NCBI RefSeq assembly: GCF_000685275.1
Contig: NZ_ARYK01000001.1
Location: 62,001-126,000, forward strand
Length of the DNA: 64,000 nt
Direction of reading: 5' to 3'
Origin: Hyphomonas johnsonii MHS-2
GTDB lineage: Bacteria > Pseudomonadota > Alphaproteobacteria > Caulobacterales > Hyphomonadaceae
Shown here one piece after another: positions 43,134-64,000 of the stretch. The notes below the pieces were generated by a model. It was not told the origin of the DNA. It did not search any database and worked only from the letters and a program-made list of their open reading frames with translations. How positions within the stretch are numbered: the first letter of the stretch is position 1; every line of letters starts with the position of its first letter. A program made the position numbers and the translations under genes.

Positions 43134-43150
43134 ATGCTGATGGATGGCTG

Positions 43151-43255
43151 GTGCCGCCGGACGGAGTGGACTTAAACACTCTTTTCGACGAACTAGCTCT
43201 CATTGAAACACAACTTGAGCCCTTCAAGCAAGAACTTGAGGAGCTGGGACTATGA
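43151..43255 (+). CDS. short coiled-coil protein coupled to mobC, possibly truncated
   Basis: A frame ending LFDELALIETQLEPFKQEL... with heptad-like leucines runs into the mobC start: its TGA overlaps the mobC ATG (ATGA). The best starts are GTG 43151 or 43166, which give 34 or 29 residues. Codon use looks genuine from about 43170. It may be the C-terminus of a gene whose 5' end was left at the other end of the element. Unknown family. Confidence 0.35.
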   Translation: MPPDGVDLNTLFDELALIETQLEPFKQELEELGL

Positions 43256-43689
43256 GACGACCCGGCGGACCCAAAACCTATGTGACATTCTCGAAAGCGG
43301 CGAGCTATGAGGAGATCGCAGCGCGTATTCCAATTCCTAAAAGGACCGCGCCATTTTCGCTTCGCCTGAGCGAACAAGAACGAGCCGAACTCAAAGCCAA
43401 CGCCGATGGCCAACCTTTGGGCGCTTACATCAAGTCGCGGCTATTCACGGGGCCGCAATACCGCTCCCGTGCGCGGCAGGTGGATCGTGAGGTTCTCGGC
43501 AAGGTTCTGGGGGCATTGGGGCAATCGCGGATATCCCAGAACCTTAATCAGATCGCCAAAGCGGCCAATATCGGCGCGCTGCCTCTCACACCAGATTTGA
43601 TCGAAGAGCTTCACGAAACTTGCGCAGAGTTGAAGTCTCTTCGGCAGGATATCATGGCTGCGCTTGGCTTGCAGGGCCGCTCGCCATGA
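43252..43689 (+). CDS. mobC: MobC-like relaxosome protein
   Basis: 145 residues. The N-terminal half has a ribbon-helix-helix-like core (APFSLRLSEQERAELKANAD), and the C-terminal half carries the MobC signature (SRISQNLNQIAKAANIGALP). Such proteins bind near oriT and help the relaxase open the nick site. The stop overlaps the relaxase ATG (ATGA), giving a coupled mobC-relaxase pair. Confidence 0.85.
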   Translation: MRRPGGPKTYVTFSKAASYEEIAARIPIPKRTAPFSLRLSEQERAELKANADGQPLGAYIKSRLFTGPQYRSRARQVDREVLGKVLGALGQSRISQNLNQIAKAANIGALPLTPDLIEELHETCAELKSLRQDIMAALGLQGRSP

Positions 43690-45005
43690 TCCTGCATGGC
43701 AATGCCAGAGGCGGTGGAAGTGAGCTTGCTGTCCACCTGATGCGCACAGATGAAAACGAGCATGTTCAGGTGCATGACGTATCGGGCTTCATGTCCGATG
43801 ACGTGCGGGGTGCGTTTCTGGAAGTTGAAGCATTGGCGAAAGGCACGCGGTGCCAGAAGCCGCTTTTTTCTCTCAGCCTCTCGCCGCCAAAAGATGCCAA
43901 TGCCAGCGCGAAGGACTTTGAGCAGGCGATTGCCAAGGCTGAAGAGGCTCTCGGGCTATCAGGCCAGCCGCGCGTGATCGTTTTTCATGAAAAAGGCGAG
44001 CATAGGGATCGGCATTGTCATGTGGTGTGGAGCCGCATCAATGCTGAGCAGATGCGCGCTATCCCCATGCCATTCAATCGACTCAAGATGCGCGATGTCA
44101 GCCGCGACCTCTTCATTGAGCACGGATGGGATGTTCCGCGCGGCCTGATCAATTCTCAAGAGCGCAATCCCCTCAACTACACGCTTGAACAATATCAACA
44201 GGCTAAGCGCATTGGTCGCCATGCCGATGAGATCAAGGCCGATATCCAAGCGGCCTGGGCGATGAGCGACACGCGCGCCGCCTTCGAACACGCACTACAG
44301 GATAAGGGCTTTAAGCTTGCACGCGGGGATCGGCGCGGCTTTGTTGTGGTCGATCACGAAGGGGAAGTGATGAGTGTCCCGCGCTGGGTTGGCGTGAAAA
44401 CCAAGGCCGTGCGTGAGCGACTAGGTTCAGAAAAAGACCTTCCTGACATTCAGGCCGTCCAATCGCAATATGCTCGGGAGATGGCCGAAAAAATGAGTGG
44501 CTTCGCCAACGAGTTGAGAGTTCGTAACGCTGAACGACTGGCTGAGCGCACCGCCCGAAAGCAGACGTTTATCGAGCGGCAGCGCTCTGAGCGCGCCGAA
44601 GCACTCAAGCGCATTCAAGAACGCAGCATCAATGAAGCGCGCGAGCGGCAGGCCAAGTTTCCGAACGGCGTGTTGAAGCGCGCATGGTCATGGCTGAACG
44701 GTGAGAATGCACGGATCAAACGCGAGAACGAGGCAGAAGCCTTGCAAGCCAAAGCGCGCGACGAGGCGGAAAAGAAAGCACTCATTCAACGGCAACGCGA
44801 GCAAAGGACGTTCTTTCAGCGGCGCGAGGTCGAAAAGCGCGATAAACTGGTGGTGCAGCATCGCGAGATTTCAAAGGAGCGCGCTGAATTCGAGAAGCGA
44901 GCGGAGCCGACGCGCGACGAACAAAGAGAGGCCTTCAAAGAACGCCGCCGCGCATCGGCGGCGCGCCGTCCAGCGCGGGATCGAGACCCGTCCCATGATG
45001 TCTGA
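43686..45005 (+). CDS. mobA: MobA/VirD2-type HUH relaxase
   Basis: 439 residues from the coupled ATG 43686. The relaxase domain occupies the first ~200 residues; the metal-binding motif is HRDRHCHVVWSRI with His106, His110 and His112. The rest is a long, highly charged, coiled-coil tail rich in Arg/Glu/Lys (residues ~260-439). It nicks oriT and leads the transferred strand through a conjugation channel. A MOBQ/MOBP-like protein; the subfamily cannot be fixed by eye. Confidence 0.9.
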   Translation: MILHGNARGGGSELAVHLMRTDENEHVQVHDVSGFMSDDVRGAFLEVEALAKGTRCQKPLFSLSLSPPKDANASAKDFEQAIAKAEEALGLSGQPRVIVFHEKGEHRDRHCHVVWSRINAEQMRAIPMPFNRLKMRDVSRDLFIEHGWDVPRGLINSQERNPLNYTLEQYQQAKRIGRHADEIKADIQAAWAMSDTRAAFEHALQDKGFKLARGDRRGFVVVDHEGEVMSVPRWVGVKTKAVRERLGSEKDLPDIQAVQSQYAREMAEKMSGFANELRVRNAERLAERTARKQTFIERQRSERAEALKRIQERSINEARERQAKFPNGVLKRAWSWLNGENARIKRENEAEALQAKARDEAEKKALIQRQREQRTFFQRREVEKRDKLVVQHREISKERAEFEKRAEPTRDEQREAFKERRRASAARRPARDRDPSHDV

Positions 45006-46369: not shown

Positions 46370-47491
46370 ATGAGCAGTCCAGAAAACAAGCTTCAAAAAG
46401 ACTTTTCCGACTTGGCGCGTGTGGCCCTCACCGGACGAACTCAAGATGTCCAGGTTTTGCTTCAGCGAGCGATTAAGAGGCATCGGGACCAACTCCCAGG
46501 CCTCACTGACAAGTTAATGGAATTGCTCCGCGAGTCGCCTACACGTTCCTCACCGCTTCGCAAGCAGGCAAGTCTTTCACTGCCTGTTGATGCAGACTCA
46601 AGACTGCATTTGATCCGAGTTGAAGATAATCCAGAACTGAGTCACGAGCCAGTTTACTCTGAAAAAATCCGGACGGTTCTTGATCGTGTGGTTGCAGAGC
46701 GACATCGTATTGAGGCACTTCTAAAGGCGGGCGTAGAACCTACGCGCACTGTCATTTTCACGGGACCACCCGGTGTCGGCAAGACGCTTACTGCCCGATG
46801 GTTGGCAATACAGCTAAAACGCCCACTTATCATATTAGATCTGGCTGCCGTGATGAGTAGCTATCTCGGCAGGACAGGGGGCAATCTCCGTCAGGTTCTG
46901 GACTTTGCCAAGAGTGTAGATTGCGTACTTCTGCTTGATGAGTTGGACGCCATTGCCAAACGCCGAGACGATAATAGTGAAGTGGGAGAGCTCAAGCGTC
47001 TTGTCACCGTGCTAATTCAGGAGATTGATGATTGGCCTGCAACAGGCCTACTGCTAGCGGCCACAAATCATGCCGAACTATTGGACCCCGCGATTTGGAG
47101 AAGGTTTGACGAGCGGGTTGAGTTCTCTCTTCCGAACAGTGAGGCCATCCAGAACTTTGTGATGGCGCAGCTATCTGAAGAGTCCGTCGATGCAAAGTTG
47201 TGGTCACGAATTCTATCTTTAAGCTTTAAAAAAAGCTCTTTTAGCGACGTAGAGCGAGCGTTGAAAAACGCGAGGCGTGGAGCAGCTCTCAACGGAGGCG
47301 ATTTGCACAAGCATCTTCTCTCAGTTGTTAAGAGTGAAGGTTTGGATAAGGGCGAGCTCATAAGCCTCGCAACAGAGCTGGTGCACAGCAAGCTCATGAC
47401 CCAGCGTTCTGCGCACGAATTAACAGGGGTCGCCAGAGACACAATTCGAGCACATATGCATGATCGTCAGAACAGCGAGGGCGCTCAATGA
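46370..47491 (+). CDS. ietA: IetA-like AAA+ ATPase
   Basis: 373 residues. An N-terminal helical region (about 1-120) precedes an AAA+ core: Walker A GPPGVGKT (residues 132-139, Lys138), Walker B VLLLDELDA (Asp190, Glu191), sensor LLAATNHAE and arginine finger region AIWRRFDERVEF. The C-terminal ~110 residues form a lid. Its TGA overlaps the ATG of a subtilisin gene (ATGA). ATPase plus subtilisin in this order is the IetAS pair, first described as a plasmid stabilisation/incompatibility locus in Agrobacterium and later listed as an anti-phage system. Start after AGAGAAAG. Confidence 0.85.
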   Translation: MSSPENKLQKDFSDLARVALTGRTQDVQVLLQRAIKRHRDQLPGLTDKLMELLRESPTRSSPLRKQASLSLPVDADSRLHLIRVEDNPELSHEPVYSEKIRTVLDRVVAERHRIEALLKAGVEPTRTVIFTGPPGVGKTLTARWLAIQLKRPLIILDLAAVMSSYLGRTGGNLRQVLDFAKSVDCVLLLDELDAIAKRRDDNSEVGELKRLVTVLIQEIDDWPATGLLLAATNHAELLDPAIWRRFDERVEFSLPNSEAIQNFVMAQLSEESVDAKLWSRILSLSFKKSSFSDVERALKNARRGAALNGGDLHKHLLSVVKSEGLDKGELISLATELVHSKLMTQRSAHELTGVARDTIRAHMHDRQNSEGAQ

Positions 47492-49710
47492 CAAAACGCA
47501 ATTTTTTATTGGGAAAAGGGGAAAGGCTTACTGAGGATGTCGTCGTAAAAGGCGGTGGCGGTCCCAAGGATCATCCGTATACCTTTGATGAGGCCGTGGC
47601 GCGATTGTCCCCTATGCTTGCTTCGACTGTGACGACCATAATGGACTTACCAGCAGTAGCCTGCCCCGAGAACAAGGCGATAGCCTCCCTAACAATCAAT
47701 CCTGAGTATCTCGCAAAATCGTACTTCCCATCTGCGCTGCTAAGGTCACTTGGCGTGGAAGCTGTGGGTAGCAAGCAGAAAAAAATTACTCCTGAAAAGC
47801 GATCGCGCGAGAGGGCGCCAGAAGAAAAGCTCACCACTGAGCTATTTGTGATGGGCAAGCGTGAGGCCTTTCAGCGATGGAACGATAGTATTGCAAGCAT
47901 GGATCCGGCCTCACAAGAGGCTCAGGAGTTACTAAGAATTGAAGAGATTTCTGCTCCGACGCCAAAAAGTAAGATCAAAGGCACTCTGCCGAGATCTGGT
48001 AAAGGCGTATTCGAAATAGTTCTTCATGCGGATGAATTATTCGGGGAACAAATCGTTCTTCCGGAACTCAGAGCATACCTCCAGAGTTTGGAGTTGGAGC
48101 CATCGCTTCAAAAGCGTTTTTATGCCGGAGGTTTAGGCTTTATCGAGCTGGACGCCCCCGCCGAACAGATTCTAGATATCGCAAAATTCAGCGCCTTGCG
48201 GGCTGTGCGTCAAATGCCAAGATTGCGAATGTTGCGCCCTCCGGTGAAATCAGCAAGCATTCCAGCGCCCGCGCCTGTGCTTCCGGCTGATCCTCCGGTT
48301 AATTTGAACATTAAGGCCGCTATTTTTGACGGCGGAATTCCTGACGACCATCCTTTGACGCACTGGGCCACGCCCATTGAAACTTCAGGGCTGGGAGATG
48401 AACATGCAGAGTTTGTCTCGCACGGGGTTGGAGTCACTTCAGCCTTTCTATTTGGCCATATTACGCCAGGTGCGGATCTTCCGCGTCCGTATTGCTATGT
48501 CGATCACTATCGCGTTCTTGATGCAGAGCCAGGCGCAGATCCACACGAGCTTTACGAAGTCCTTGAGAGAATAGATGCTGTTCTTAGCGCCGAAGAATAT
48601 GACTTAGTAAACTTAAGCTTAGGCCCATCGGTTCCTATCGAAGATGATGAAGTTCACGCTTGGACCGCTGTATTGGATGATCGGTTTGGTAAATCAGATA
48701 CGCTTGCGGGTATTGCGGTTGGCAATGACGGTGAGGGCGACGCTGATTTAGGACTAAACCGCGTACAGGTTCCTTCAGACTGTATAAATGCGCTTGCTAT
48801 TGGGGCATGTGACAGTCGTGAAAGTTCATGGAAGCGTGCAAGTTACAGTTCAGTTGGACCGGGGCGAAGCCCTGGCATAGTGAAGCCAGATTTGGTCGAT
48901 TTTGGCGGGGCTTTGGATCGCCCCTTCCTAACTCTTGGTATCAGTTCCACACCTTCTCTAGAGTCAACAGGGGGAACATCTTTTGCTACTCCAAGTGCAT
49001 TGAGAGCGGCAGCAGGAATTCTCGCCCATTTTGAGACTAACATTAGCCCTTTATCGGCGAGGGCGCTTCTGGTTCATGGCGCGGAATGTGATGAGCATGA
49101 TCGAAAGGAAGTTGGATGGGGAAGAATTCCACAATCCTTAGATGATATAGTGATCTGCGACGACGATACAGTGAGGATTGTCTATCAGGGCTCAATTTCG
49201 CCTGCGAAGTATCAGCGCGTGTTTGTGCCGATGCCGGATGGACTGATATCAGGCAAGGTCGCCATTACAGCAACGATTTGTTACAAGTCTCGTACAGACC
49301 CGCATCATCCTGGAAATTACACTCAAGCAGGACTAGACGTTTCTTTTCGTCCACATGATCAGAAGTTCTCAAGAGCGGGCCAGCTGCATCCTGACACGAA
49401 GTCGTTTTTCGGTAAGAACAGTGCTGGCTTGTTTGAAGATGAGCAGCGTCGTGATGCATGGAAGTGGGAAAACTGCTTGCACGACAGTCACACGTATATG
49501 GGCAAATCATTGAAAAACCCGTGCTTCGATATCCACTACAACTCACGCCTAGAAGGGCGCGATTTTAGGCCGGATGTTTCATTGCCGTATTCAATGATTA
49601 TTTCGGTCAGAGCTAAAAGTATAGACGACTTATATGACCAAGTTGTGCGTAAATATGCTACCCGCCTTGAACCGATAAGGCCGAGTATCGAAATACCAAT
49701 CAGAACCTAG
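47488..49710 (+). CDS. ietS: IetS-like S8 (subtilisin) serine protease
   Basis: 740 residues. The catalytic triad is readable: Asp281 (IFDGGIPDDHP), His312 (VSHGVGVTSAF) and Ser498 (GGTSFATPSAL). The N-terminal ~270 residues precede the protease core and have no signal peptide, so it should act in the cytoplasm. The C-terminal ~200 residues form an extra, probably beta-rich, domain. Together with IetA it makes the IetAS pair: the ATPase presumably senses or unfolds a target that the protease cuts. Mechanism is inferred from the family. Confidence 0.85.
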   Translation: MTKRNFLLGKGERLTEDVVVKGGGGPKDHPYTFDEAVARLSPMLASTVTTIMDLPAVACPENKAIASLTINPEYLAKSYFPSALLRSLGVEAVGSKQKKITPEKRSRERAPEEKLTTELFVMGKREAFQRWNDSIASMDPASQEAQELLRIEEISAPTPKSKIKGTLPRSGKGVFEIVLHADELFGEQIVLPELRAYLQSLELEPSLQKRFYAGGLGFIELDAPAEQILDIAKFSALRAVRQMPRLRMLRPPVKSASIPAPAPVLPADPPVNLNIKAAIFDGGIPDDHPLTHWATPIETSGLGDEHAEFVSHGVGVTSAFLFGHITPGADLPRPYCYVDHYRVLDAEPGADPHELYEVLERIDAVLSAEEYDLVNLSLGPSVPIEDDEVHAWTAVLDDRFGKSDTLAGIAVGNDGEGDADLGLNRVQVPSDCINALAIGACDSRESSWKRASYSSVGPGRSPGIVKPDLVDFGGALDRPFLTLGISSTPSLESTGGTSFATPSALRAAAGILAHFETNISPLSARALLVHGAECDEHDRKEVGWGRIPQSLDDIVICDDDTVRIVYQGSISPAKYQRVFVPMPDGLISGKVAITATICYKSRTDPHHPGNYTQAGLDVSFRPHDQKFSRAGQLHPDTKSFFGKNSAGLFEDEQRRDAWKWENCLHDSHTYMGKSLKNPCFDIHYNSRLEGRDFRPDVSLPYSMIISVRAKSIDDLYDQVVRKYATRLEPIRPSIEIPIRT

Positions 49711-49758: not shown

Positions 49759-50880
49759 CTAGATCGACCGATTTTCTGAGAGTCGAAGAAACAGGTTCAT
49801 CTTGTCCACATCATTTATGCTGGCGACGTGGTTGAGGAATGCAATATTGACCTTGTGTGAGGTATTGATTAGAGCGCGTAATAGTTCCGTATTCTGCAAG
49901 CTCGTCCCGCTCAGCGCGCTCCTGTCTGCAGTGATGTTGTCATGAGTGGTCTGCGCAAAATAGGTATGCATCTTTCCAATTAAACCGACCATGATGTCGG
50001 AAATCTGAATCCCTTCCTCGGACTTGGAATCCGCAAATCTGTAGTTTTGCAATGGTTGTCCATTGGATGAAGGCTTTATCGTCTTCATTTCATCCCGAAT
50101 GGAATCCTCCATATCGAGGATGTGGTTGGAATTTTTAAACACAGCGATACGCGTCAGATAGAAGATGGTGAAGTTTTCGATCAAGAGATGTGGTGTGAAC
50201 CCTTCTATGAAATCGAGGCTCTGAAGGTTGCATCCAGCCTGCAGCATGCCTTTGAGCATCATTGTGTTGAATTCAGGTAGAACTTCTTCGCTACGCCCCA
50301 GCAAAGCGAGGAGCTCTTCGAGAAACTGCTTTCGATTCTCCGGCGCAACATCTGGATAGTGATACTTATAGAGAATGTTTATTGTTGCAGGGAGGTTTGC
50401 TCGTAGCAGCGTGGTCAGGTCAGCCTTTAGCACGATGTGTAGTTCAGTCAGGCGTGGTTGACCCAGTCTGTAAAGGATCGAGTCTATGATATCGACAAGT
50501 GACCAATATAGCGGGTCAAGTGCATGATAGTGGACCATTAGGCCATTATCGGTGACCCATTGCAGAAACATGGTCAGCTTGTCGGACTTGAGTAGGTCCA
50601 AAAACTCACCCTTGGCAACATGCTTGAGTTTGATTTCATCCGCACTCTTCTGGATGCGCATTGCATCACGCAATGGCTGAATATCAAGCGGGCGTGGTCC
50701 GCTGTCATGGACTACACCTCCTAAAACGAAGACGGCGAGCTCTGCAACGTTTAGGCCCTGAAGTCCAAGGCGGAGCTTTTTGATGTTGTTTGTTTCGTCG
50801 TGATAAAAGGTATAGGCCGCATCGGCCTTTGTCAGTCCATGCATAGCTATGTGTGCATTTCGAATTTCACCAATGTCCAT
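49759..50880 (-). CDS. DUF3800-like protein
   Basis: 373 residues from ATG 50880 (a GTG at 50895 would add five). The sequence opens with TFYHDETNN, then VFVLGGVV, DEIKLKHVAKGEF and a late SKSEEGIQISDIMVGLIG. These Asp/Glu positions fit the DUF3800 family, an RNase H-like fold found often in defence islands and mobile elements. It converges on ietS (48 bases between stops) and is divergent from the large nuclease-like protein. Function unknown. Confidence 0.6.
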   Translation of the reverse strand: MDIGEIRNAHIAMHGLTKADAAYTFYHDETNNIKKLRLGLQGLNVAELAVFVLGGVVHDSGPRPLDIQPLRDAMRIQKSADEIKLKHVAKGEFLDLLKSDKLTMFLQWVTDNGLMVHYHALDPLYWSLVDIIDSILYRLGQPRLTELHIVLKADLTTLLRANLPATINILYKYHYPDVAPENRKQFLEELLALLGRSEEVLPEFNTMMLKGMLQAGCNLQSLDFIEGFTPHLLIENFTIFYLTRIAVFKNSNHILDMEDSIRDEMKTIKPSSNGQPLQNYRFADSKSEEGIQISDIMVGLIGKMHTYFAQTTHDNITADRSALSGTSLQNTELLRALINTSHKVNIAFLNHVASINDVDKMNLFLRLSENRSI

Positions 50881-51047
50881 CAAAGGCAACCCCACAAGTA
50901 TTGTATTTAGAAGGCTGCACTATAAACCAAAGGTAGCTCATACATTTTTCAATATTTGAACGCTTGTGGCGTGCAGAAGCGGCCACCTTAACACCCTTTC
51001 TGTTGATAAGTCTGTAGATTTAGAGAAGAACTACTGCCTTACCCCTA

Positions 51048-51053
51048 TATAAT
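51048..51053 (+). promoter_or_regulatory. TATAAT -10 element before the large nuclease-like gene
   Basis: A perfect TATAAT lies about 70 bases before ATG 51124. No matching TTGACA stands at 17 bases, only weaker TTGATA further up. If used, transcription would begin near 51060, excluding the earlier ATG at 51052. The 243-base divergent region (50881-51123) otherwise holds nothing identified. Confidence 0.4.
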
Positions 51054-51123
51054 GTTCTCCAGAAAATACTCATGCGAATCGGGTGATTGTTTCACCCCTA
51101 ACGAAAGCGCCCTTGTCAATTTC

Positions 51124-54100
51124 ATGTCCCAACTTTCTGCCACACAGATCCCAAAACCTTCGGATGATCAGGCATTTGAACGAGCATGTTTGGTGCTCTT
51201 TCGGAACGTCCTCAACGACCCCTCCGCTAAGCTGTACGGACGGAAAGGCACTTCGCAATATGGGGTCGATATTGCAGGCATTAGAGATGGCGATAACCAC
51301 TGCGTGGTCGGCATACAATGTAAACTTAAGGGACCAGGCAAGGAACTCGACGAAAAAAAAGATATCCGAGACCAGGTTGCCATGGCACGAAAGTTCAGGC
51401 CTCTGCTGTCTGAGTATCTGATTGTCACTAGCGCTCCTGATCATCCGTCGTATGATACTTTAGGGCTTGAGCTATCTCAGTCAGAGAGCGAAGGCAGGTC
51501 CAAACCGATTAAGATACGCATACTCGGTTGGGAGTCTCTCGAAAGAGAGGTTAGGGAACACCCCGAAGCACTGAAAGCATTCGATCCGTCTCACACGCCT
51601 CATGGCGATCAAATGATCAGCATGATGACTGAGTTGTCAGCGGCAATCACGGCTGACATTCGTTCAAATCCGGAAATCCACACCTCCGACCAAGCAGCCC
51701 GCTTTGAAGTAGATACAGGCGTTGTTGGCATGGAAGCACAAGGTGTAGCTGCCGTTATCAATCAGCAAATTTCTGACTATGCCGACCTAATTTCGACAGA
51801 CCCTAAAAGCGCCTTGAAGCTACTAAGCTCGGTTCGGGATAAGCTGGATGATGGAGCCACACAAACTCTCCGATATCGAGTGGTTGCAAATATAGCAGCC
51901 TGCTATCTTGAGCTTGGTGAAGAAGCCAATGCCGCAGAGCGCCTCATCAACGCCTACGACATTGACCCCGAAAATCCCAAGGCATCAGCCAACAAGGCCT
52001 TGGGACTGCTTCTGCAAAATGAAACCGCCAAGCTAATCTCATTCGCAGAGGCAAAGTTAACATCTCAATCTGAAAATGCGTCCTTGGCAGGATATCTCAT
52101 TCAGGCGCGCATTGGTACAGAGTGTCTCGACCCGCTGGAAGCTATTCCCGAAGCGCTACGTGAGCATGCAGAGGTCCAGCTTGCTTGTGTCCGATACTAC
52201 ATGGAGGCAGGGGCAGAGGGTGAATGGTGGCCGCATGCAATGCAGGCCTACAAAGACCACCAAGATGTGCCAGGAGTATCTGAATTCTACGCGGCTGCCC
52301 TTCTGGAAAGAACAATTACCGCAACTGGATATAGATACGGATACATCCTCACGGACGAGCAGGAAGGTGACCTTAGGGAAGCAATTCAAATTCTTTCTCG
52401 TCAATGGAGCGAAATAAAAGATCCAAAGACACACACGCGGGGGGAGCCCATCGCTACACCACTCAACTTGATGGTGGCGCATCGACTGTTGGGCGAGCAT
52501 GAACCGGCGCTTCAAATTGGACAGGACGCTTTGCATCTTTTCCCTGATAGCGAAGATGTTAAGGAACGTCTGGCAGCGGCCTATATGGATGCGGGAAAGA
52601 GATCGGACGCAGCCGAACTTACAGCCAGCCTCACAGTCACCCCAGCAATTTTCATGGTTCGCTTTACTGCCGCGATGGAGATGCAGGACTGGAAAACCGT
52701 AAACGAACTATATGAAGCACATCTCGACAAGTGTCCCCTTGCGGAGAAAAGTATTGTATCCGCAGGCCACCTTATCAGCAGTATGAGCGGGGAGGCGTCA
52801 GGTCAAATTGAAGTCAAGTTGACCGAAGCACTGAAAGAATTCGAATCAAGCCCGCGCGCCTGCATCGCCCTAAGTCAATTTGCAGGAGCCAACTCACTCA
52901 ATGAGCGTGCGGATCAATTCTTTAATCTGGCGAAGAAATGTATCAGCGAACCATCCCCCAGTTTCGCGGCACGGATGATGTTTGCGCAGGAGGCAATCAA
53001 TAGAGGCGACAACATAGCCGCAGCGAGTGCGCTTTATGGATATGTTGACACTTCGAGAGATTCTTCTGAATTGCGGACTCTGGCACATGCGTTAGCAAAT
53101 GAGTTTCCGGTCAGACAACGAAGCCGAGACTTCTTTCAGAAGCTGCCGGATGAAATATCATCCACACCTTCATATCAGGTATTCGAAGCATTCAGCCTAA
53201 TCAATGCAGGGCAGCTTAAAGAGGCTATCCCTCTTTTGGAGAGCGCATTTTCTTCTGAGCGGAAGCTAAGCACGCTAATATACCTTTTTAACGCGTTTAT
53301 GAGGATTGATGACCGCAAAAGTATCAAAGACTATCTCGACCAAGATGGAATTGATGATCTCGAAGGCCCTCCGATTCACCGGATAACTCTTAGTCAGATT
53401 CTCTTGGAATTTTTCGAATGGGACCGGGCGATCTCTATTGGTTACGATACCGTTTGCGCCGCCACCAATATGCCTAATGTGGTAATGAAATTCTGTGGCC
53501 TTGTGCTAAAGCCAACCGCGAACAGGCCAATCGATTTCGACGGACGCGTTGCACCGAAATGCTGGGTGAAATTGCGCAGCGAGCAAGGCGATAGATACGA
53601 ATGTATTATAGATGAAGAAGCTGACCGCGCCTGGGGCAGTGCGGCGAGTTCATCCAACACGTTTGTACAGCGTATGCTGGGTCTTTCAGATGGAGATTCC
53701 TTCAAAGAAGATGCTGTCTTTGGGATAACGAAAACTTGGACTGTTGAGGAAGTAAAGCCGCGCTGGTTACAGGCATTTCATTATCTCAGCGCCAGCTTTT
53801 CTCAGAGATTTCCCGGCGTGCCCGGCTTTGTCTCTTTCACCATGAAAGACGACGACATTCAGCCGGCGCTAGACCAAGTCAAACGGCAAGGCGAAGCTAC
53901 ACGAGAATACGCAAACCTCTATTTAAGAGATGGCGTTCCTGCGGCTATCGTTGCGGGCCGTCGCGTAGGCGGAGCGATAGCGTTTGCGGACTACCTGCCG
54001 ATAATTGGTGAGAACTTGCGGACCTGCTTGGGAAGTCATCAGGAACGCCATGAAGCCTTCGAGACGATACGAGAAATTCAAAACAAAGGAGTTATTGTCG

Positions 54101-55041
54101 ATGCGCTTACGGCATGGCGTGCGGCCGAGCTGAAGGTGTTTCCCGCACTAAAGGCTGTATTAGGACCAATATACTTGCCTCAATTCGAGCTTGAAACCTT
54201 AAAAGAAATTCTTGAAGACCAAATGATGGATAGAGAAGGCAGCTCGCTATCCATGAGCTATGAGAACGGCCAGTACTTCCGAAGAATGACAACGCCAAAA
54301 GAGCGGAAGGAAACACTCAAAATTCATCAAGAGCGCTTGGCCGAGATTCAAATACATTGCCAAACTGAAGCAGTCGTCCTTCCCACAGAGATGAATGAGG
54401 TATTAGAACAACTGGCAAATGCCGAACTGGCAAAAGATATATCGCCCGTGCTGATTCCTATTGATGAGCGAGCGCTCTTATCGGACGATATGCGGCTACG
54501 CGAGTGGGCATTTGCCGCATGTGGTCGTAAAGGACTGTGGTTGCAGACTGCGTTGATGGTAGCGCTGGATGACGGCCATATCACCCTGGACGAGTATAGC
54601 GACGCTATAGTGCTTCTTGCCGCTCATAGACATGATTATGTATCGGTCGGAGCGGAGGCCATGCTAAGCGTGGTTACACGGGGGAATAGCGATCACCTCT
54701 ATGAGCTTCTGGCTCTGTGCCAGTTTGTTGGATCAAAGAATGCTGAATTCAGATCGCACCTAAAGTTAGTCGCTGAGTTCATAAATAGGCTCTGGAAAAT
54801 CAGCACCCTTCCAGATCTGACGGTTATGAAGGCTACGAGTATTGCGCTTCGCGCACTCCTGACAAAGCATCGAGAGAAAGAGTGGGCGCTATGGGCAGCC
54901 GGATTGGCTGTGATTTTGGATGCTCAGCCCAAGGGATATTTTCAGTCTTGGCTCAGAGGGCACTTCCTTAGCGTCGAGGAGGTGAACGACGAGATCGGAA
55001 AATTTTCGGAGGCTCCAAAAAAAGGACGTAAGCGAAAATAG
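51124..55041 (+). CDS. large Mrr-like nuclease - TPR - Gre-like - PIN protein
   Basis: 1305 residues from ATG 51124; ATG 51052 adds 24. Four parts are visible. (1) Residues ~15-150: PD-(D/E)XK domain of Mrr type, with YGVDIAGI (Asp49) and VGIQCKLK (Gln65, Lys67), which is the D...QxK form. (2) About 200-780: helical TPR repeats such as ACYLELGEEANAAERLINAY and AAYMDAGKRSDAAELTASL. (3) About 805-880: a GreA/GreB C-terminal-like fold (CWVKLRSEQGDRYECI, MLGLSDGDSF, TWTVEEVKP). (4) About 985-1180: PIN-like nuclease with IVDALTAWRAAEL and LLSDDMRLREWA...MVALDDGHIT. No P-loop was found. Domains 3 and 4 are inferred by pattern. The gene lies in a defence-like cluster, so a nucleolytic effector role is likely. 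Confidence 0.6.
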   Translation: MSQLSATQIPKPSDDQAFERACLVLFRNVLNDPSAKLYGRKGTSQYGVDIAGIRDGDNHCVVGIQCKLKGPGKELDEKKDIRDQVAMARKFRPLLSEYLIVTSAPDHPSYDTLGLELSQSESEGRSKPIKIRILGWESLEREVREHPEALKAFDPSHTPHGDQMISMMTELSAAITADIRSNPEIHTSDQAARFEVDTGVVGMEAQGVAAVINQQISDYADLISTDPKSALKLLSSVRDKLDDGATQTLRYRVVANIAACYLELGEEANAAERLINAYDIDPENPKASANKALGLLLQNETAKLISFAEAKLTSQSENASLAGYLIQARIGTECLDPLEAIPEALREHAEVQLACVRYYMEAGAEGEWWPHAMQAYKDHQDVPGVSEFYAAALLERTITATGYRYGYILTDEQEGDLREAIQILSRQWSEIKDPKTHTRGEPIATPLNLMVAHRLLGEHEPALQIGQDALHLFPDSEDVKERLAAAYMDAGKRSDAAELTASLTVTPAIFMVRFTAAMEMQDWKTVNELYEAHLDKCPLAEKSIVSAGHLISSMSGEASGQIEVKLTEALKEFESSPRACIALSQFAGANSLNERADQFFNLAKKCISEPSPSFAARMMFAQEAINRGDNIAAASALYGYVDTSRDSSELRTLAHALANEFPVRQRSRDFFQKLPDEISSTPSYQVFEAFSLINAGQLKEAIPLLESAFSSERKLSTLIYLFNAFMRIDDRKSIKDYLDQDGIDDLEGPPIHRITLSQILLEFFEWDRAISIGYDTVCAATNMPNVVMKFCGLVLKPTANRPIDFDGRVAPKCWVKLRSEQGDRYECIIDEEADRAWGSAASSSNTFVQRMLGLSDGDSFKEDAVFGITKTWTVEEVKPRWLQAFHYLSASFSQRFPGVPGFVSFTMKDDDIQPALDQVKRQGEATREYANLYLRDGVPAAIVAGRRVGGAIAFADYLPIIGENLRTCLGSHQERHEAFETIREIQNKGVIVDALTAWRAAELKVFPALKAVLGPIYLPQFELETLKEILEDQMMDREGSSLSMSYENGQYFRRMTTPKERKETLKIHQERLAEIQIHCQTEAVVLPTEMNEVLEQLANAELAKDISPVLIPIDERALLSDDMRLREWAFAACGRKGLWLQTALMVALDDGHITLDEYSDAIVLLAAHRHDYVSVGAEAMLSVVTRGNSDHLYELLALCQFVGSKNAEFRSHLKLVAEFINRLWKISTLPDLTVMKATSIALRALLTKHREKEWALWAAGLAVILDAQPKGYFQSWLRGHFLSVEEVNDEIGKFSEAPKKGRKRK

Positions 55042-57975: not shown

Positions 57976-58113
57976 TTGCAAAGCAATTATCTTTTGTGTT
58001 ACGTTCCGTATTGAATAAGAAGCCGTTGTTTTTACTCGGCTTTGTAACAAGTGCGGGTCGTTGCGAATCGTAACCGTGCAAATTCAACAAAAACGGTCGT
58101 TTTTTGGGTGTGT

Positions 58114-58142
58114 CGCCAGCGTTGCTTTGGTGGCCGCTGGCG
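58114..58142. repeat. hairpin just upstream of the resolvase gene
   Basis: CGCCAGCG and CGCTGGCG (8 bp each) flank a 13-base loop, ending 31 bases before the resolvase ATG. It might be part of a recombination site or control translation of the resolvase. Confidence 0.4.
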
Positions 58143-58173
58143 TCATTTCAACTCACTTGAAAGGACACCGACC

Positions 58174-58731
58174 ATGGCAAAGACCTATGGCTATTACCGC
58201 GTAAGCACACATGACCAGAACCCCGAGCTACAAATCTCCGCGTTGAGGGCGGCGGGATGCCACCCAGTTATCAGAGACGTGGGAGTTTCAGGCGCGAAAG
58301 CGTCACGGCCCGCATTCGATCAGATCATGAACAGGATAACCGATGGCGATAAGCTGATCGTCTGGCGATTGGATCGCATGGGACGGTCCTTGCGAAACTT
58401 GGTTGAGGTGAATGAAACGCTGATTGAGCGCGGAGCGAAATTCGAGTCCCTTACTGAGAAGCTCGACACCTCAACCCCGATGGGGGAGTTTGTGTTTCAC
58501 ATCCTGGCCGCAGTCGCGCAGCTTGAGAGACAGATCATTCGCGAGCGTACGCTGGCGGGCATGGCTGTGGCTGCTGCGAAAGGACGATTTCCAGGTCGTC
58601 CTCGGAAAAGAAGCAACGAGTCCCCTATTCAAAGAGGAAAAAAATTGAATAGAAACATCCGTATACTGTATAATAATGTATATGTGGGACAAGAAAGAAA
58701 TAAAGAAGTGGAATCGTCATTTTGCAAATGA
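58174..58731 (+). CDS. serine resolvase/invertase lacking its HTH domain
   Basis: 185 residues from ATG 58174 after AAAGGACACC. The catalytic domain is intact: YYRVSTHDQNPELQ with the nucleophile serine, the SGAKASRPAFDQIM block, VWRLDRMGRS with the conserved arginines, and the long E helix. After GRFPGRPRKRSN the expected C-terminal helix-turn-helix of Tn3/Hin-type enzymes is absent and a different sequence follows (LNRNIRILYNNVYVGQERNK). The lost HTH, with the next promoter inside this tail, points to truncation by recombination. It may bind DNA poorly. Confidence 0.82.
   Translation: MAKTYGYYRVSTHDQNPELQISALRAAGCHPVIRDVGVSGAKASRPAFDQIMNRITDGDKLIVWRLDRMGRSLRNLVEVNETLIERGAKFESLTEKLDTSTPMGEFVFHILAAVAQLERQIIRERTLAGMAVAAAKGRFPGRPRKRSNESPIQRGKKLNRNIRILYNNVYVGQERNKEVESSFCK
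58645..58674 (+). promoter_or_regulatory. promoter with TTGAAT and TATAAT
   Basis: TTGAAT (58645-58650) and a perfect TATAAT (58669-58674) are 18 bases apart, inside the altered tail of the resolvase. The ATG codons at 58676 and 58682 follow directly, so the next gene may be expressed from a leaderless transcript starting near 58681. Confidence 0.6.
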
Positions 58732-61063: not shown

Positions 61064-62668
61064 ATGAAACTGAGGGATAACGAAACCCATCGCTTCGGCT
61101 CGGCGGAGTTCTGCGATAAGCGCGATTTAAACCTCGCAGGCATGCTTAAACAGCGCCCACACTCGCTTCTAGTTGGATTTAACGGCAAGCGGCCCGTCTT
61201 CTACGGTGACGCTGGCGGCCTGCTTCTTATTGGTGGAGCGCGAGGCGGAAAGCTGAAAGACTTGCTCTCCTATAATCTGTGCGCAGGCATCCATAGCCCT
61301 TCGATGCTTGTGCTGGATATGAAGGGCGAACTGGCGGCTATCAGCCAGGATCAAACACTCGACAAAAAACACTGCGTTTACTGGAATCCGGCAGCCCTCC
61401 ATGGCTTGCCTCAACACCGCATCAATCCTGTTGATTATGTGCGGATTGATAGCCCCAGCTTGATCTCAGATGTCAAAGTGCTGGCGCATAATCTCATCCC
61501 GCCATCAGGCAGGCATAACGGGGATTATTTCGAAGCGCGGGCGCGAGAGTTTCTCGAAGGGATCATTCTGACGCTTGTGCGGTTGCACGGTGTTTTGACG
61601 CTCGCGCTTTTGTACGAAGCCGTGAACCTCATTCCTGGCGGCGGGGAAGCGTGGCTCAATTTTGCGTTCGAGATGAACCAGTCCGGCTTCGCTGTCTCAG
61701 CGCGCATCGAAGAGGAAATTGCCGCCTCCCGCGACGGTCATTCCGGCTCGGGCTTTCAAGGCATTCTGGGGGAGGTGTTCAAAGCTTTGTCGCCGCTTTC
61801 AGATCCGACGCTGATGGCAGCGGTGTCGCCGCCCTTTGATTTCTCCATGGAGCAAATGTGTGCAGATCAGGCAGTTCAGCTTTACATCATGCCGCCTGCT
61901 GAATTCATTGAGCCCTGGGCTCCCGTGATCAAGGCGCTGTTTGTGGCGGGGATGATCTACAAGGCGCGAAAAGCCCAAGCGCCGCAGCAAACATGGATTC
62001 TCGATGAGTGCGCGCAGCTCGGCGGGTTTCCGCTCGTCGAGAAACTCTTCACCTATGGGGCCGGGATCGGGATACGTCCGTGGGCGGTGTTCCAGTCGGT
62101 TTTCCAGATGGAGCGGATTGGCAAGGGCGCGCAAAACATCATCACCTCAAGTGCGCAGCTGAGGAGCTATTTTGCCATTCGCGATATTGAGACGGCGCAA
62201 AGCGTCTCTCGGATGCTTGGCGCGCAGACGCTCGAATGCGATGATGAATTGATGCAGCAACGGGCGCGCCACGCCAGGCATCAGGCGATGCAATCCATGA
62301 TGAGCGGCGGCGATCCGCTGATGGCGGGGATGAGCATTGCCCACCATGGGCGCGAAGCGCAGCAAAGAAGCAAACAGCACCGCCAGCTTCGCACGCCCGA
62401 GGAAGTGCTAAATACCCCCAAGGACCAGCAATACATCTTCACCGACGCTTTGCCTAAGCCGCTATTGGCCGAGCGAAAGCCTTATTACGAGCAGTCCTTC
62501 ATGGCGGGTCGCTATCATCCGAACCCCTATCACCCGCCGGAGGGCCGCGTGCGTGTTAAGACGCGCTGGGGGCGTGCTTGGCGAGCGGTTGTTCGAGAGC
62601 CAGTGCCAGCGGCCTTCGCCGACTACCCGCAATATGCGGATGGTTGGTGGTCCCGCATCGCGCCTTAG
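61064..62668 (+). CDS. VirD4/TraG-type coupling protein with variant Walker A
   Basis: 534 residues of the type IV coupling protein family. The Walker A region reads IGGARGGKLKDLL with Lys63 followed by Leu rather than Ser/Thr, and Walker B is WILDECAQLGG (Asp314, Glu315). Other conserved blocks are SMLVLDMKGELAA, YWNPA and FAIRDIETAQSVSRMLG. It has no N-terminal membrane helices, unlike VirD4, so it may dock to membrane partners such as the small proteins just upstream. It would deliver the relaxase-DNA complex to a mating channel supplied in trans. Confidence 0.82.
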   Translation: MKLRDNETHRFGSAEFCDKRDLNLAGMLKQRPHSLLVGFNGKRPVFYGDAGGLLLIGGARGGKLKDLLSYNLCAGIHSPSMLVLDMKGELAAISQDQTLDKKHCVYWNPAALHGLPQHRINPVDYVRIDSPSLISDVKVLAHNLIPPSGRHNGDYFEARAREFLEGIILTLVRLHGVLTLALLYEAVNLIPGGGEAWLNFAFEMNQSGFAVSARIEEEIAASRDGHSGSGFQGILGEVFKALSPLSDPTLMAAVSPPFDFSMEQMCADQAVQLYIMPPAEFIEPWAPVIKALFVAGMIYKARKAQAPQQTWILDECAQLGGFPLVEKLFTYGAGIGIRPWAVFQSVFQMERIGKGAQNIITSSAQLRSYFAIRDIETAQSVSRMLGAQTLECDDELMQQRARHARHQAMQSMMSGGDPLMAGMSIAHHGREAQQRSKQHRQLRTPEEVLNTPKDQQYIFTDALPKPLLAERKPYYEQSFMAGRYHPNPYHPPEGRVRVKTRWGRAWRAVVREPVPAAFADYPQYADGWWSRIAP

Positions 62669-63413: not shown

Positions 63414-63454
63414 TTGACGATTTTGAAAAGTGAGCGTATGTTCACTATCTGTTC
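63414..63454 (+). promoter_or_regulatory. promoter overlapped by an alphaproteobacterial LexA (SOS) box
   Basis: TTGACG (63414-63419) and TATGTT (63437-63442) are spaced by 17 bases. GTTC (63440-63443), seven bases and GTTC (63451-63454) match the alphaproteobacterial LexA consensus GTTC-N7-GTTC exactly and overlap the -10 end. An AGTGA-N8-TCACT repeat (63429-63446) overlaps as well. LexA bound there would block the promoter of the recombinase operon, so it should be induced by DNA damage. Confidence 0.75.
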
Positions 63455-63505
63455 TTTTGGTCGATCCCGTTGGATTGAGCAAAGCAAGAAGAGGAAAGGA
63501 CGAAG

Positions 63506-63523
63506 ATGATTGAAACACGCTAA
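63506..63523 (+). other. possible 5-codon leader frame
   Basis: ATGATTGAAACACGCTAA follows AGGAAAGGACGAAG, a stronger ribosome site than the next gene has. It could be a leader that tunes translation of the downstream gene, or simply a chance frame. Confidence 0.3.
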
Positions 63524-63543
63524 CTAGAAAAGGAACACGAGTC

Positions 63544-63918
63544 ATGGAGGAAACCAGGACCACGCAACTGTCACCGGAACGCGCAGCCGGAACGCCAATA
63601 GAGGGGCGAAGCCAGCGCGAATTTAAGAACACCGTGTCGGTCGATCTCGAAGCCTATATGCCGCTTCTCGAAGACACGGACATTCCCGACGATCAAAAGC
63701 TTGAATTGCTGCAGGCACTATATGCCATCATGGCGAGCTTTGTTGATCTGGGGTTTTCGCTTGAAACGAGCCCCTGTGGAAAACCGCAAAAAACTGGCGA
63801 TCCTTCGGCTCAAGCCCTTCGCGATCATGTATACTCTTCTCATCAAAATCAAATTGAGCGCTTTAAAAATGTTGCAGACCGCACGTGCGATGTTGCAGGG
63901 GAAGGAGTCGAAGCATGA
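63544..63918 (+). CDS. protein of unknown function coupled to a serine recombinase
   Basis: 124 residues, ATG after AAAAGGAACACGAG. Not recognised. The central part is helical (DDQKLELLQALYAIMASFVD) and the ends are hydrophilic. Its TGA overlaps the ATG of the recombinase gene (ATGA), so it may be a recombination directionality factor or a recombinase partner. It is the first gene behind the SOS-type promoter. Confidence 0.6.
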   Translation: MEETRTTQLSPERAAGTPIEGRSQREFKNTVSVDLEAYMPLLEDTDIPDDQKLELLQALYAIMASFVDLGFSLETSPCGKPQKTGDPSAQALRDHVYSSHQNQIERFKNVADRTCDVAGEGVEA

Positions 63919-64000
63919 CCCTACAAGCCAAGACAAAAACTGCGATTATCTATTGCCGGATATCATCGCTAAAACAGGCCTCAGACGGGGACGGGCTCAA
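63915..64000 (+). CDS. serine recombinase, N-terminal fragment (cut by window)
   Basis: Only the first 28 residues are visible: MTLQAKTKTAIIYCRISSLK then QASDGDGL. AIIYCRISS with the nucleophile serine pair and a following Q is the start of a serine resolvase/invertase or large serine integrase catalytic domain; the ISSxxQxxxGxxL pattern suits large serine recombinases. Likely the integrase of the element. Translation is coupled to the preceding gene. Confidence 0.75.
   Translation, partial: MTLQAKTKTAIIYCRISSLKQASDGDGL

Follow-up and report, generated by a model that had tools for sequence, protein, structure and literature searches.

A LexA box on the recombinase operon of a tRNA-seated island in Hyphomonas johnsonii, and a recombinase frame predicted to be joined to the mobilization genes by excision

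Inspection of a 64,000-nucleotide stretch of the Hyphomonas johnsonii MHS-2 genome (contig NZ_ARYK01000001.1; hereafter the window) revealed an island of ~22.3 kb, seated in the 3' end of a tRNA-Thr(GGT) gene, in which a small gene and a large serine recombinase (LSR) lie behind a promoter carrying a LexA box, and in which the reading frame of the recombinase passes through the attachment core. The explanation that we consider likely, taken as a whole, is that of a LexA-controlled operon, excision driven by DNA damage, and expression of mobC and the relaxase that depends on the excised circle. The operon and its promoter comprise the following features (window coordinates):

63415 to 63443, + strand: promoter, with TTGACG (63415-63420) as the -35, a 17-nt spacer and TATGTT (63438-63443) as the -10; the CTTG/TTG spacing is kept in relatives
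63429 to 63446, no strand: imperfect dyad AGTGAGC-GTAT-GTTCACT, sharing the first LexA half-site
63440 to 63454, + strand: LexA box GTTC-ACTATCT-GTTC (GTTCACTATCTGTTC), overlapping the -10 and kept in relatives
63491 to 63523, + strand: conserved mini-ORF, made up of the Shine-Dalgarno (SD) sequence GAGGAAAGGA (63491-63500) and ATG ATT GAA ACA CGC TAA (63506-63523, MIETR)
63528 to 63535, + strand: SD-like sequence AAAAGGAA of the small gene, directly 3' of the mini-ORF stop
63544 to 63918, + strand: small gene, 124 aa, first in the operon and found upstream of nearly all LSRs of the clade
63915 to 64000 and on to L001:9613 (65612 in window numbering), + strand: LSR, a 565-aa frame when integrated, which enters the tRNA-Thr gene

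The first-pass annotation had proposed an exact GTTC-N7-GTTC box, known as the alphaproteobacterial LexA site, at the -10 end of a well-spaced promoter, and this holds in each part: the box is exact (+ strand), it has four bases in common with the -10 of TTGACG-N17-TATGTT, and the motif is the published LexA box of Caulobacter (PMC12700426, PMC12907096). The annotation had also let the box lead to a serine recombinase and a coupled small gene; the operon is confirmed, but its order is corrected, the small gene coming first and overlapping the start of the recombinase by ATGA (63915-63918). With 1.3 promoter-like sites expected in the region, a promoter scan returned three. GTTCN7GTTC occurs once in the window, where 1.84 occurrences are expected by chance, and at least one was present in 85 of 100 shuffles of the window, so that the bare match is not significant, an argument from motif count alone was rejected, and the case for LexA depends on comparison with relatives. 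The dyad, in the form AGTGAGC-N4-GTTCACT, is found in six members of the family with a GTTCAC-type box (L008-L010, L014, L016 and L030), and is not present in L011, L101 or most box-bearing members. In the recombinase tree these six dyad-bearing members are spread over separate branches.

A search of 398 genomes of the order recovered the 124-aa small gene in 44 of them, with the LSR directly after it in nearly all retrieved loci; further loci were obtained through the recombinase itself (41) and through a class-wide profile search (24), and 75 non-redundant upstream regions of the small-gene/LSR operon constituted the test set for the box. When every pair of 4-mers at gaps of 0-15 was counted with no prior choice of motif, GTTC-N7-GTTC was the top spaced word, present in 27 of the 75 regions; after shuffling, the commonest word reached only 6-8. 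The counted boxes have the orientation of the coding strand, and most are located 60-140 bp upstream of the small gene, distant homologues included. A TTG is found 20-29 bp upstream of the box in 15 of the 27 (random positions: mean 3.0, maximum 8), and TAT or TAA within the 7 bases before it in 22 (random: 3.6, maximum 11). In the closest relatives the N7 and the flanks vary around an unchanged CTTG, TAT and pair of GTTC halves; the relatives include a Henriciella MAG, with a recombinase 91% identical to that of the window.

The exact box is absent within 400 bp in about two thirds of the members of the LSR family, indicating that the machinery can do without LexA control. No GTTCN7GTTC box was present in any Rhodobacterales member tested, and an unbiased word search in these box-negative members gave no shared operator. 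The Rhodobacter-type motif GTTCN7GATC was considered as a substitute in them and rejected, no consistent site being found. Four loci (L024, L027, L029 and L149) harbor a TATAGGA-N5-TCCTA(T)-like palindrome near the position of the box, upstream of the small gene, which suggests a different repressor. On a tree of 70 recombinases the distribution of the box requires no fewer than 18 gain or loss events, of which well-supported branches make 11 unavoidable. Together, the repeated gains and losses, the box-free Rhodobacterales and the alternative palindromes characterize LexA regulation as an option that has been repeatedly adopted or lost.

GTTCN7GTTC occurs 111 times in the 3.6-Mb host genome, against 67 for a reversed control pattern. 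The host lexA gene carries GTTCTACATGTGTTC 41 bp upstream of the matched frame and 19 bp upstream of the longest open frame, and further boxes precede recN, rmuC, a comM-like Mg-chelatase gene and a photolyase gene; no exact box was found at the host recA (L128:1-310). By inspection, a one-mismatch GTACN7GTTC is located on the reverse strand ~75 bp upstream of recA. The N7 spacer of the window box ranks 15th among 100 genome matches by a spacer matrix, below several other host boxes. Given lexA itself, the boxed SOS genes and the published motif, the host possesses the appropriate repressor and employs this motif; with a box in the promoter, boxes on host SOS genes and boxes on orthologous operons, the operon has the sequence features expected of a member of the alphaproteobacterial LexA (SOS) regulon. 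In the absence of binding or expression data, LexA binding and SOS induction of the operon are inferred from sequence, and on this basis we regard its direct control by LexA as very likely.

The recombinase matches the resolvase catalytic domain (PF00239, 5e-24), PF13408 (9e-8) and the phrog_95 integrase family (5e-57), and scores 19.2 bits against PF07508, slightly below the cut-off of 21.1; it has the resolvase catalytic domain, recombinase domain and zinc ribbon that define a large serine recombinase. Its relatives in phages are only distant ones. The small protein had no family match in Pfam, PHROG, NCBIfam or PDB sequence searches, its predicted structure has low confidence (pLDDT 63) and gave no fold match, and its relatives include none in viral contigs and no plasmid match. 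It is probably an accessory or directionality factor for excision, a role that is inferred.

The mini-ORF that separates the LexA box from the small gene has a strong SD of its own, with the family form GGAAAGGA, which is the second most frequent independent word of the family (21 of the 75 upstream regions). Where this SD precedes an ATG other than that of the small gene, the frame closes after 2-5 codons in all cases found, and the sense codons differ between family members. The mini-ORF most likely serves translational coupling or protection of the leader. Leader minigenes acting through coupling or mRNA protection have been described, and those of axe-txe, LEE1 and LEE4 resemble it in being very short ORFs with a strong SD ahead of the main gene (PMC8708949). 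The literature searched contains no example ahead of a serine recombinase.

The island itself extends from the left attachment core to the tRNA-Thr(GGT) gene just past the recombinase, where TGGTGCCGC recurs as the right end within the tRNA 3' end (L001:9480, 65479 in window numbering). Its further features are:

43149 to 43157, + strand: left attachment core TGGTGCCGC, identical to the tRNA-Thr(GGT) 3' end
43151 to 43255, + strand: alternative C-terminal tail of the LSR (VPPDGVDLNTLFDELALIETQLEPFKQELEELGL), which continues the LSR frame in the excised circle alone
43252 to 43689, + strand: mobC/NikA-like relaxosome protein
43686 to 45005, + strand: MobA/VirD2-type relaxase (PF03432, 2e-15; scanned as the frame 43620-45005)
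46370 to 49710 and 49759 to 50895: cargo, the IetA/IetS anti-phage system (AAA ATPase and S8 protease) and the candidate defence protein PDC-S51
51052 to 55041: protein of 1329 aa that combines TPR repeats with the PIN domain of the TPR-GreAB-C-PIN system, possibly additional defence cargo
58051 to 58731: second, small serine resolvase/invertase
61064 to 62668, + strand: TraG/VirD4-type coupling protein of the island (PF02534, 4e-40)

An integrase with attachment repeats at a defined site and a relaxase make the island an integrative mobilizable element (IME), a designation that rests on the lack of mating-pair genes among the proteins scanned and is given with reservation, since that scan, which returned no VirB/Trb match, covered small ORFs incompletely. 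In related genomes the tRNA-Thr site is seen empty, and in several it is occupied by other elements. In most of the elements compared, a core of 7-12 bp is common to the two ends; none was obtained for one genome (G223). For the element of another genome (G006), a repeat at L099:6091 was rejected as the left end, the true one lying upstream of the mobC homologue (L157).

In the integrated form, the LSR frame passes through the attachment core and ends in antisense tRNA sequence (...AKGVVPRGRIELPTSS...). The predicted circle junction, composed of right end, core and left end, reads ...AKGVVPPDGVDLNTLFDELALIETQLEPFKQELEELGL, and the TGA stop of the tail (43253-43255) overlaps the ATG of mobC (43252) as ATGA, after which the relaxase follows. 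A natural joined form is found in a genome that carries two such elements in tandem at tRNA-Thr (G075; L101:2610-4724 and L102:10538-12546), each with its own LexA box: the joint (L101:4617-4724) reads ...MVLPEGESLNTLFDELAAFEEQLKPYAYELEELGL, with ATGA into mobC, and its tail is 66% identical to that of the window (E 1.5e-9). The recombinase of the first copy is interrupted by a stop near L101:4078. Across genomes of the order, 25 of 26 left ends combine an ATGA/GTGA overlap with mobC, an open frame upstream of it and a related tail; a protein motif of the tail is present in 15 of the 26 (shuffled mean 0.06), and the codons of the four closest tails differ mostly at third positions. At the other end, the LSR frame enters the tRNA 3' end in the same frame at 23 of 26 named-genome loci with a tRNA, and the intact order-level LSRs with a terminal tRNA likewise read through it in that frame, the sites being tRNAs for Thr, Arg, Ser, Leu, Ala, Tyr and Met.

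Immediately upstream of the chromosomal mobC, the final 100 bases, which correspond to the tail, contain no promoter-like site by a simple consensus scan that could miss a relaxase promoter; this fits weak mob expression while the element is integrated, although weak or absent expression in that state is itself inferred, as is any effect of the tail on the activity or stability of the recombinase. Expression of mobC and the relaxase from the LexA promoter dependent on excision is, in our judgment, fairly probable. No earlier report of the recombinase-attP-mobC architecture was found in a literature search of limited scope.

Several other readings have to be weighed against this proposal. That the box is a chance match, or a product of shared ancestry without function, is hardly credible: about two matches are indeed expected per 64 kb, but the frequency of the box among the non-redundant upstream regions exceeds that of any shuffled word several-fold, its position and strand are fixed, on the -10, and it recurs on separate branches of the tree. 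It is also conceivable that the direct repeat is bound not by LexA but by another regulator, for example an element-encoded repressor reading the dyad, which extends into the first half-site and is seen again in six members, and the palindrome TATAGGA-N5-TCCTAT near the same place in some box-free relatives could be cited in support. We find this very unlikely, as most box-bearing members lack the dyad but have the GTTC halves and the 7-base spacing fixed, the same motif is found on host SOS genes, and no regulator gene was recognized in an incomplete scan of the element proteins. Concerning the frame through the core and the overlap with mobC, both might be side effects of integration into tRNA 3' ends, which are alike, so that a frame that stays open across one will often do so across another, and might then have no regulatory meaning. 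This too is unlikely: at the opposite end, the tail is conserved as protein and varies mostly at third positions, and the overlap with mobC is nearly invariable; moreover, the frame is identical at tRNAs of seven specificities.

A possible but doubtful alternative accepts the LexA box as real and assigns it mainly to integration on arrival, conjugative single-stranded DNA inducing the SOS response of the recipient and the recombinase then inserting the element. In its favour, the recombinase is itself transcribed from this promoter, integration by serine recombinases does not usually need helpers, and TndX of the IME Tn4451 performs both reactions without a directionality factor, according to a review (PMC5704250); for the V. 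cholerae integron, incoming DNA has been described as inducing SOS (PMC8191803), and no evidence presented here makes the small protein an excision factor. Conversely, the promoter in the circle also reaches mobC and the relaxase, which points to departure rather than arrival, and the two uses are not mutually exclusive. Which of the two reactions is induced by damage is unresolved, as the function of the small protein is not established.

Under the preferred reading, that of LexA control coupled to excision, LexA would cover the -10 and the start region in the undamaged cell and block the single promoter serving mini-ORF, small gene and LSR. Upon DNA damage, RecA would trigger self-cleavage of LexA and the promoter would open, allowing the recombinase, probably together with the small protein, to excise the island. 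Because the attachment core lies inside the recombinase frame, excision would fuse this frame to the opposite-end tail that overlaps the start of mobC, and the transcript of the circle would run in the order promoter, small gene, recombinase, mobC, relaxase, until reintegration split the operon again. The first-pass annotation had predicted that damage switches on excision or integration; as the circle transcript should run into mobC and the relaxase, that prediction should be widened. These steps are a proposal, built on what can be read directly from the sequences: the box and its conservation, the host SOS boxes, the attachment cores, the frame across the core, the conservation of the tail and the tandem junction.

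Elements of this arrangement have parallels. For ccrC, the serine recombinase gene of SCCmec, cleavage of LexA at the promoter is reported to relieve repression (Liu et al. 2017, cited in PMC9728531), and it resembles the recombinase gene of the island in this respect. It differs in belonging to a staphylococcal cassette and in having another operator. We know of no relaxase operon joined to it through excision. The intI genes of class 1 and Vibrio integrons are site-specific recombinase genes directly controlled by LexA, but encode tyrosine recombinases and belong to a cassette platform rather than an excising island. Mobility of SXT/R391 ICEs is likewise turned on by DNA damage, but by an indirect route through the SetR repressor and activators, and with a tyrosine integrase. 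LexA boxes on genes of mobile elements are known, mostly for tyrosine integrases, phage genes and transposases; the box described here recurs across an old family of alphaproteobacterial serine-recombinase islands. In Tn916-type elements the transfer genes are served by transcription across the joined ends, possible only in the circle; the joint of the present island differs in lying inside a coding frame, with a stop/start overlap and a LexA box on the promoter. Finally, in the mycobacteriophages BPs and Brujita attP lies within a gene and integration alters the C-terminus of the protein, and BPs provides a precedent, in its repressor, for a tail-dependent change in activity or stability (PMC4557955). 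The exchange of the C-terminus on integration is common to both, whereas the gene of the island encodes a recombinase rather than a repressor and the change also makes or breaks a mobilization operon; the switch is therefore considered to work in part like the BPs type and is not counted as a member of it.

The LexA reading of the box is supported by comparison, without laboratory proof, and the wider architecture surprises more than the box itself. For annotation, it carries the warning that the 3' ends of these recombinase genes are antisense tRNA. For the biology of the elements, the recombinase-attP-mobC overlap explains how the relaxase may be silenced in the integrated state without a dedicated repressor, and, given the IetAS anti-phage system on the island, defence genes could spread more readily in response to DNA damage. 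More generally, we lean towards the view that one widespread family of tRNA-seated mobilizable islands in the alphaproteobacteria uses excision as a gene switch, the single promoter of which has in many lineages, and repeatedly, been put under the LexA of the host, such that damage, excision and mobilization may form one ordered programme.
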